Shown piece by piece: positions 42,508 through 44,613 of a DNA stretch of 64,000 nucleotides. Under the pieces are notes generated by a model that saw only the letters and a list, made by a program, of their open reading frames with translations, did not search any database and was not told the origin of the DNA. The position numbers and the translations under genes are program-made. Numbering within the stretch: position 1 is the stretch's first letter; the number at the start of each line of letters is the position of its first letter. This DNA comes from FCB group bacterium (GTDB lineage Bacteria; Zixibacteria; MSB-5A5; GN15; JAAZOE01): positions 1 through 64,000 of the forward strand of contig JAAEQF010000083.1 of assembly GCA_024231695.1 (NCBI GenBank). The letters are read 5' to 3'.

Positions 42508-42752
42508 TCAACCCATATCTTGCTTATTACCCAGTGCGTCTTGCGCTCGTCGTATGAAAGCTGAAAAAAATTGGAAGAACTGTCAACTACGGCAAAATGT
42601 CTGATTCGATATGCCCCTACATCGGTTTTCCAGTCGCCGGTCACTTCCGATATTTTGTACACCTGTCCATTCCAGCGAAACCGTGACGGCCGCATACTGT
42701 TGTTCTGGAACAACACTACGACCTCGACTGATTCATCCATATCCTGATACAT
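42504..42752 (-). CDS. small DUF6504-like protein coupled to dinB
   Basis: An 82-residue soluble beta-rich protein. The pattern RPSRFRWNGQVYKISEVTGDW ... YRIRHFAVVD ... FQLSYDERKTHWVISKIW resembles DUF6504, a small domain often encoded beside Y-family polymerase genes in other phyla. Its function is unknown. The overlap with dinB (ATGA) suggests the two are made together. It may bind or modulate the polymerase (inference). Confidence 0.65.
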   Translation of the reverse strand: MYQDMDESVEVVVLFQNNSMRPSRFRWNGQVYKISEVTGDWKTDVGAYRIRHFAVVDSSSNFFQLSYDERKTHWVISKIWVE

Positions 42753-42753
42753 A

Positions 42754-42840
42754 TCACCATTTCACCATAAAGAAATACTTTATTATATCAGCCATACTTG
42801 TTAGTAACAATAGAGTTGCGACACCCGCAATATACCGCAT
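42754..42840 (-). CDS. possible 28-residue single-helix membrane peptide in the SOS operon
   Basis: Too short for the ORF track. From ATG 42838-42840 to TGA 42754-42756 it would encode MRYIAGVATLLLLTSM... ending in FFMVKW: one hydrophobic helix with a basic residue near each end. AAAGGGG lies four bases before the ATG. The stop is one base before the DUF6504-like start, as expected for coupled translation. It lies 43 bases past the lexA stop. SOS-induced peptides of this size and type are known elsewhere (TisB, SidA). Against it: a good promoter for dinB overlaps the same bases, so the ORF could be accidental. Confidence 0.5.
   Translation of the reverse strand: MRYIAGVATLLLLTSMADIIKYFFMVKW
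42782..42810 (-). promoter_or_regulatory. internal promoter and palindrome before the DUF6504-dinB pair
   Basis: On the minus strand TTGTTA (42805-42810) and a perfect TATAAT (42782-42787) are 17 bp apart. The -35 box is half of the palindrome TTGTTA-C-TAACAA (42798-42810), a plausible operator for LexA or another repressor. Transcription would start about 22 bases before the DUF6504-like ATG. Confidence 0.55.
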
Positions 42841-42883: not shown

Positions 42884-43504
42884 TCAGCGCATCCTGCGCA
42901 TCAAACCGACCACTCTCCCGGCGATATAAAACCCCGGCGTATCCTCCTCGACAATAATCGGACCGAAAGCATCATTCTGCGGCTCCAGCCTTACCCGGTG
43001 TTTCTCCGGATAAAATTTCTTGACCGTCGCCTCTTCTCCGATAACGGCCACCACAATATCACCTCGAATCGGCTGTGCCTCCCGATGAACAAGAACGAAA
43101 TCACCATCGAAAATACCGGCATTGATCATCGATTCCCCTTTGACTCGAAGACAGAACACATCCTCCGTCGGCAAAAAAGTGGTATCGACGGCAATCTCGC
43201 CTTCCCGATTTTCGATCGCCGTAATCGGCAAACCGGCCGGAACCGATCCGACCAATGGGACTGTATGGTACCGAACCAGCGTCTGCCGGACCAGTTCGAT
43301 TCCCCGCGACACCAATTTTTGGCGGCGAATATATCCTTTGGTCTCCAGAGCATCCAGAATCGAACGAACGCCGTTGGTCGAAGATATACTAAATTGCTCG
43401 CCGATCTCCCTGATTGTCGGCGGCATACCCGAACCGCGAATCTTATCCTCGATAAACGATAAAATTTGCTTTTGCCGTTCGGTCAGTTTTATTATGGGAC
43501 TCAT
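42884..43504 (-). CDS. lexA: LexA SOS repressor
   Basis: A 206-residue repressor. The winged helix-turn-helix (PTIREIGEQFSISSTNGVRSILDAL) is followed by the self-cleavage site Ala90-Gly91 (SVPAGLP) and the catalytic Ser125 (GESM) and Lys162 (ATVKK). RecA-stimulated cleavage would release the SOS genes. The true start is the ATG at 43504, with GGAGGAGAC directly upstream; the track start is 11 codons too long. It heads a run with a possible small peptide, a DUF6504-like gene and dinB. Its operator sequence could not be fixed. Confidence 0.95.
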   Translation of the reverse strand: MSPIIKLTERQKQILSFIEDKIRGSGMPPTIREIGEQFSISSTNGVRSILDALETKGYIRRQKLVSRGIELVRQTLVRYHTVPLVGSVPAGLPITAIENREGEIAVDTTFLPTEDVFCLRVKGESMINAGIFDGDFVLVHREAQPIRGDIVVAVIGEEATVKKFYPEKHRVRLEPQNDAFGPIIVEEDTPGFYIAGRVVGLMRRMR

Positions 43505-43540: not shown

Positions 43541-43569
43541 AAGTTACTGCCCAAATGTTCAGGCGTCAA
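43541..43569 (-). promoter_or_regulatory. promoter of lexA
   Basis: TTGACG (43564-43569) and TAACTT (43541-43546) are 17 bp apart on the minus strand. Neither an E. coli-type CTG-N10-CAG box nor a Bacillus GAAC-N4-GTTC box is present, so the local LexA site must differ. Confidence 0.6.
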
Positions 43570-43626: not shown

Positions 43627-44613
43627 CTAATAACGGCAGCTGAGACCGAAAATGAGTCCGAAATCGACTGAATTGCGGAATTTGAAAAGGTTTTCAACTA
43701 TTCCATATTCCAGCATGAGATGCGGTGAAACAACATGTTTAACGCCAAGGATCAACTCATGAGTCGGGTCAGAAAATCCCTCAAAAGTAGCCGCTACGCC
43801 TGAATTCGACAATTGCTGAGCAATCAGAGATATCTTTTTGCTGACTGAATATTCAACCGCGGCAAAAAAGGTCCATTGGTACGGTCTTAATTCTATATCA
43901 AAGAGGCTTCCCGAACCGTACTCCCCGTAGCCCAGTGTAGTATAAAGATAAAATGGTCCTGACCGGTGAGTGCTGGCCAGCGAAAAAGCGCCATCGACCC
44001 CTCCGGAACCGTAATACTCACGCTGAGTGGCAGTCGGTAATCGCAACAGAGCCGTCCAAACCAGCGATCTAAGCCACCCCTGCCCCCCGTATAGCCTATG
44101 GCGAGCCAGGAGGCTTACATCGCCCATGATCGTGCCCTTATCGGTGTTATCGAATACAACTACTTCCTTACCGCTATTGTTGACAAAACTTACCTGTATG
44201 GCATTTACCGGAAATTCGCCCCGGTCAGCTTGTCCCAGCCCAAAACGGTCATGAAATCTCATTATCATCGGATCGAGAACCCCTCCGGAACGGCTGATTA
44301 GCGGAGCCATAACAGCGAATTCAATATCTTTCCCGATCCCTATGGAAAAACCAATAATATTTTGCAGGATTTCCACATCAAGCAAATAACGGTCAGTCTT
44401 GTTCCAGCGGTTGGTCAAGCTGTTGAAAAGCGTCAGTTCCCATCTTCCCCGCTCCAATATTTCCGGGCGAATGGGCACCAGATCGAGTCGCAGAGTCTGA
44501 AGCGGTGTTTGCCCGGTTATGGGCAATGGCCCTTTGGGCGGATTCTGCCCGGCCGCGACCAATTGGCCCCAGATGAGCATCATCAGCAGAAAGGCTATCC
44601 TGGTTGTTTTCAT
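43627..44613 (-). CDS. DUF3187 family exported protein
   Basis: A 328-residue protein with a signal peptide ending at LVAAGQ. The rest alternates short amphipathic beta strands with glycine turns and ends in an aromatic residue (LSCRY), as outer membrane beta-barrels do. The pattern GPLPITGQTPLQTLRL...GRWELTLFNSLTNRW and RFHDRFGLGQADR fits DUF3187, a family of unknown function. It is convergent with nothing and divergent from the selenoprotein gene, with 217 bases between. Confidence 0.72.
   Translation of the reverse strand: MKTTRIAFLLMMLIWGQLVAAGQNPPKGPLPITGQTPLQTLRLDLVPIRPEILERGRWELTLFNSLTNRWNKTDRYLLDVEILQNIIGFSIGIGKDIEFAVMAPLISRSGGVLDPMIMRFHDRFGLGQADRGEFPVNAIQVSFVNNSGKEVVVFDNTDKGTIMGDVSLLARHRLYGGQGWLRSLVWTALLRLPTATQREYYGSGGVDGAFSLASTHRSGPFYLYTTLGYGEYGSGSLFDIELRPYQWTFFAAVEYSVSKKISLIAQQLSNSGVAATFEGFSDPTHELILGVKHVVSPHLMLEYGIVENLFKFRNSVDFGLIFGLSCRY

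Follow-up and report, generated by a model that had tools for sequence, protein, structure and literature searches.

A conserved gene for a predicted small membrane peptide directly downstream of lexA in part of the Zixibacteria

SidA of Caulobacter crescentus is an SOS inner-membrane division inhibitor. It has 29 residues and binds FtsW (PMC4211646). SosA and its counterparts, division inhibitors of Gram-positive bacteria, have a single transmembrane segment and are encoded next to lexA; their location is kept despite sequence divergence (PMC6851548). FtsW is a likely common target of such inhibitors (PMC13396833). TisB is a LexA-repressed, pore-forming membrane peptide of 29 residues whose helix bears a strip of four charges (PMC8309996). 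In Pseudomonas aeruginosa, the SulA-like PA3008 adjoins lexA, and peroxide induces both (PMC1250226).

The locus described here lies in a 64,000-nucleotide stretch of DNA (the window) from a genome of Candidatus Zixiibacteriota (5.1 Mb in 1001 contigs); its named relatives are metagenome-assembled Candidatus Zixiibacteriota. The minus-strand gene order is lexA, a small ORF, an 82-residue DUF6504 gene and dinB, with the following features:

43504-42884, minus strand: lexA, 206 residues, Pfam PF01726 and PF00717, ATG at 43504 after GGAGGAG
42851-42845, minus strand: AAAGGGG, Shine-Dalgarno-like
42840..42754, minus strand: small ORF of 28 residues, MRYIAGVATLLLLTSMADIIKYFFMVKW-stop, a predicted conserved small membrane peptide
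42752-42504, minus strand: DUF6504 gene, 82 residues, Pfam PF20114 (E 8e-7)
42507-41278, minus strand: gene for a dinB-type Y-family DNA polymerase, 409 residues, PF00817 and PF11799

The sequence-only reading had pointed out the 28-residue ORF, and its details were found as described: an ATG that AAAGGGG precedes by four bases, a single hydrophobic stretch, a Lys-Trp C-terminus and a TGA that is separated by one base from the next ATG at 42752. Its placement between lexA and dinB was correct on the lexA side, where the ORF follows directly after a gap of 43 bases, but the next gene is the DUF6504 gene, which precedes and overlaps dinB (42504 versus 42507). An ORF of 28 residues is too short for the usual gene finders, and a Pfam search with the peptide gave no match. 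When the intergenic stretch was dinucleotide-shuffled, 2% of the shuffles yielded a hydrophobic ORF of such kind, and the ORF by itself was barely above chance; what raised it above chance was its presence at 17 of 17 loci of three families together with codon-structured conservation.

Several features of the neighborhood were recorded alongside. The DUF6504 protein has 44 of 82 columns invariant among 16 relatives, its gene travels with dinB whenever the pair is parted from lexA, and a literature search under the name DUF6504 found no paper. Directly upstream of the lexA promoter lies a 328-residue minus-strand ORF (43627-44613) with a signal-peptide-like start. In one relative (L011:254-1500, family f3), the peptide and DUF6504 genes are separated by an insertion of repeats and an ORF that by eye resembles a small DUF559-type endonuclease; L016 has repeats there as well.

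The stretch 3′ of lexA was read in 63 loci: six from the window's own family (f1, window included), two from f2, nine from f3, 35 from f4 and 11 from other families. A hydrophobic small ORF was present just 3′ of lexA at all 17 loci of three GTDB families (6/6 in f1, 2/2 in f2 and 9/9 in f3), at one of the 35 f4 loci and at none of the 11 loci from more distant families of the class. Family f4 is a natural control, in which the same gene and the same search were used but the ORF is missing. The ORFs of f1 and f3 encode 25–33 residues and those of f2 49–66 residues. All six f1 members with the locus had ORFs of about 25–29 residues, for example MSRYYTLVILLIIMSKSLLLNYYFM and MSKIFGSFYIFVTLLLLVCKSDILNLWFI, with earlier-start readings also possible in L004 (42 residues) and L014 (67 residues). 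All nine f3 loci had ORFs of 27–33 residues with a common motif, for example MSLRKILSMVLILLLMPVGFEPVMELLRRIL, and both f2 loci had the longer form with a similar helix that contains Pro. A further f1 genome (G006, 87% complete) gave no lexA or DUF6504 match and stands outside the f1 count, so the f1 figures include no within-genus comparison.

Conservation at the amino-acid level was measured on ungapped codon blocks by comparing their translated similarity with that obtained after permuting the order of the alignment columns. The BLOSUM sum-of-pairs was 1.46 in f1, compared with 0.26 ± 0.32 for permuted columns, and 2.43 in f3, compared with 0.62 ± 0.27; 0 of 5000 permutations reached the observed value in either family, in a comparison where aligning the blocks as protein somewhat favors the reading frame, an effect kept in check because the alignment has no gaps and no stops occur. 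Identity at the first, second and third codon positions was 0.56/0.69/0.46 in f1 and 0.48/0.78/0.47 in f3, and the highest values at second positions are the expectation for a hydrophobic coding sequence. The ORF thus combines an open frame with amino-acid-level conservation in relatives, as expected of a conserved protein-coding small ORF, and it is almost certainly a real gene. A profile of the f3 peptides retrieved all nine lexA-linked f3 copies (E 1e-12 to 8e-16), the same copies from which it had been built; across 133 genomes of the phylum no further match was convincing (all E > 0.02). The f1 and f3 peptides showed no significant sequence similarity to each other; with an hhalign probability of 8.6%, they are not demonstrably homologous by sequence, and it is their position and shape from which we infer one family with one shared function. 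No earlier description of this family of small genes, which some Zixibacteria carry in the transcription unit of lexA, was found in the libraries and papers searched.

At eight of the nine f3 loci, the peptide start overlaps the lexA stop, as ATGA (L051, L052, L057, L058 and L060), GTGA (L056) or GTGATG (L053 and L054). This overlap suggests that lexA and the peptide are probably translationally coupled in f3. In addition, the f3 peptide remains beside lexA where DUF6504-dinB is out of reach (L052, L058 and L060) or 1.2 kb off (L055 and L057). The tight linkage of the peptide is to lexA, not to dinB, and its retention after the departure of DUF6504-dinB argues against a role as a dinB leader and speaks for a function connected with expression under LexA control. 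Adjacency to lexA, a trait of YneA, SosA, DivS and ChiZ, was found at every one of the 17 loci in f1, f2 and f3.

Four minus-strand elements bear on the expression of the peptide in the window:

43564..43569, minus strand: TTGACG, -35-like hexamer of the lexA promoter
43562-43547, minus strand: LexA-operator-like palindrome CTGAACATTTGGGCAG in the lexA promoter spacer
43541..43546, minus strand: TAACTT, -10-like hexamer after a 17-base spacer, with corresponding hexamers in relatives
42782..42810, minus strand: TTGTTA-17-TATAAT, a promoter-like match within the peptide ORF that relatives do not share

The general form upstream of lexA was the palindrome CTGNNCANNTGNNCAG between TTGAC -35 and TAnnnT -10 hexamers. 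A relaxed palindrome was found upstream of lexA at 6/6 loci in f1, 9/9 in f3 and 32/35 in f4, with 0 expected from mononucleotide shuffles, and we infer that it is the LexA operator. Because this operator-like palindrome is conserved in the lexA promoter, co-expression of lexA and the peptide in the SOS response is very likely. As it is retained beside lexA in relatives, the peptide is probably a DNA-damage-response protein. Given the 43-base gap to lexA, the peptide in the window may have a separate promoter. A second exact promoter-type match in the genome lies on contig C390 (L108:1501-1523), upstream of an operon with a DEAD-box-helicase-like ORF. No upstream match to the candidate operator was seen at recA of the window genome (L114 region); recA may be outside the LexA regulon or controlled from further upstream.

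The promoter-like sequence inside the ORF had no counterpart at that place in relatives, where the best promoter-like matches were weaker and located elsewhere. A conserved internal promoter was ruled out on these grounds, and the match probably either arises from AT-rich codons as a side effect or is peculiar to the window genome. An Rfam search of the region returned no known RNA family, and a structured RNA at the locus was set aside for want of a match. No antisense promoter-like site was seen over the peptide ORF in a search to which a trans-encoded RNA would be invisible. The sequence-only reading had proposed checking the conservation of the peptide in relatives and had regarded a broken ORF under a conserved overlapping promoter as evidence against it. 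The opposite pattern emerged: relatives keep the peptide, with codon-structured conservation, and not the promoter-like sequence that overlaps it. Its proposal of an SOS membrane peptide was upheld in part, in that the ORF is a gene for a small, predicted membrane protein directly after lexA, behind a promoter with a LexA-operator-like palindrome.

The peptides have a short basic N-terminus followed by an uncharged hydrophobic core, which measures 12–16 residues in all 17, and the net charge is mostly +1 to +3. A single membrane helix is predicted from hydropathy and charge counts; 12–16 uncharged residues would be short for a full membrane span, unless polar flanks are also buried. In f3, the core is followed by a near-fixed PVxFEP motif, the last two residues of which vary in L056 and L058, and then by an amphipathic tail. 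The f1 motif, S/C-K-S..LN, differs from it. A near-fixed motif would suit a specific membrane partner.

The resemblance to SidA is one of size and shape only, comprising length, one hydrophobic helix and probable LexA control; the peptide gene differs in lying directly 3′ of lexA, in f3 overlapping its stop. YneA, SosA, DivS and ChiZ share the plan of a small protein with one membrane segment beside lexA, conserved in position and divergent in sequence. However, SosA has 77 residues with an extracellular C-terminal part and is encoded divergently from lexA, whereas the peptide gene is on the same strand directly downstream. YneA and ChiZ carry a LysM domain, which the Pfam search did not find in the 28-residue peptide; the f1 and f3 peptides, with 25–33 residues, have no extra domain. 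The Gram-negative example PA3008, next to lexA as well, is a putative division inhibitor but is SulA-like and not a membrane peptide. TisB and DinQ of Escherichia coli are alike in size class and in LexA-linked control, which is probable here. TisB is amphiphilic, with charges at D5, K12, D22 and K26, and has an RNA antitoxin, whereas the peptides here have an uncharged core and no antitoxin was seen; an amphiphilic helix with a charge strip was found in none of the 17.

How these peptides act can be approached by weighing several explanations, two of which give the peptide itself no role. The ORF could be a chance frame over a genome-specific internal promoter for DUF6504-dinB, in keeping with the TG that precedes the -10 hexamer of the internal match and with the 2% of shuffles that hold such an ORF. 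This explanation has a negligible probability, because relatives lack a promoter match at the corresponding position but retain the ORF across f1, f2 and f3, with a coding signature; the f4 and other-family control and the codon permutation ruled out a chance ORF. It is also very improbable that the ORF is a leader that sets DUF6504-dinB translation by coupling, with the peptide itself unimportant. The window would fit such a leader, as the stop lies one base before a DUF6504 ATG that has no clear Shine-Dalgarno sequence, but the other f1 gaps are 11–14 bases, mostly with purine-rich Shine-Dalgarno-like sequences, and the peptide is conserved at the amino-acid level. The f3 peptide persists where DUF6504-dinB is located elsewhere, which ruled out a leader function as the conserved role.

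The remaining explanations are all SOS-controlled membrane peptides and differ in the target. A TisB/DinQ-like peptide that depolarizes or permeabilizes the inner membrane and induces dormancy would agree with the size class, the mostly positive net charge and the probable LexA-linked expression, as for the LexA-repressed, 29-residue TisB (PMC8309996). We consider it quite unlikely. The charge strip of the TisB helix is missing, the f3 start overlaps lexA and so leaves no separate regulated leader of the IstR-target kind, no known RNA family was found in the region, and for a pore-former, low-level co-production with LexA throughout the population would presumably be costly. The uncharged core, together with the PVxFEP motif of f3, points to a membrane effector that binds a partner, of the SidA, SosA or YneA type, rather than to a TisB-type pore, and the depolarizing action suggested in the sequence-only reading is accordingly not supported. 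A small SOS membrane protein with another target, as a modulator of a membrane enzyme, a transporter or a protease, or as a membrane-located feedback factor for LexA or RecA, is possible though on the unlikely side: the linkage is tight to lexA rather than dinB, and the differing f1 and f3 motifs suggest differing or co-evolving partners, but no particular partner is positively supported. A division brake is favored by the near-fixed motif, the SosA and SidA precedents, FtsW as a possible common target and the FtsW/RodA-family genes present in the window genome. As a hypothesis by analogy, division inhibition is plausible but falls short of an even chance.

In the explanation that we tentatively prefer, the peptide would be a small single-helix inner-membrane protein co-transcribed with lexA. 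DNA damage would lead to LexA self-cleavage and de-repression of the lexA promoter, and the peptide would be made alongside new LexA. It would probably insert with its basic N-terminus inside and act on a partner in the membrane, for which a septal-synthesis protein such as FtsW is the likeliest candidate, so that division would be held back during damage repair, with the logic of SidA, SosA and YneA. The whole f4 family manages without a peptide beside lexA, and this counts against the explanation, which taken as a whole we judge to be close to, but below, even probability.

It is conceivable, although we would sooner doubt it, that these genes represent a new family of SOS checkpoint peptides in the Zixibacteria lexA transcription unit, translationally coupled to LexA in one family. 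If so, each de-repression of lexA would yield two products in a fixed ratio: LexA, the repressor by which the response is shut down, and a brake in the membrane that acts on division or some other process of the envelope. Most known SOS-controlled small membrane proteins beside lexA come from Gram-positive bacteria, and Caulobacter has SidA; the theme would here reach an uncultured phylum, in a simpler version of about 30 residues and, in one family, with a start that overlaps the lexA stop. Synteny combined with codon-level conservation can recover genes that fall below the usual length cut-offs. The f1, f2 and f3 peptides provide a defined set of natural variants for testing, and the palindrome of the lexA promoter is a testable candidate LexA-binding motif for the Zixibacteria.
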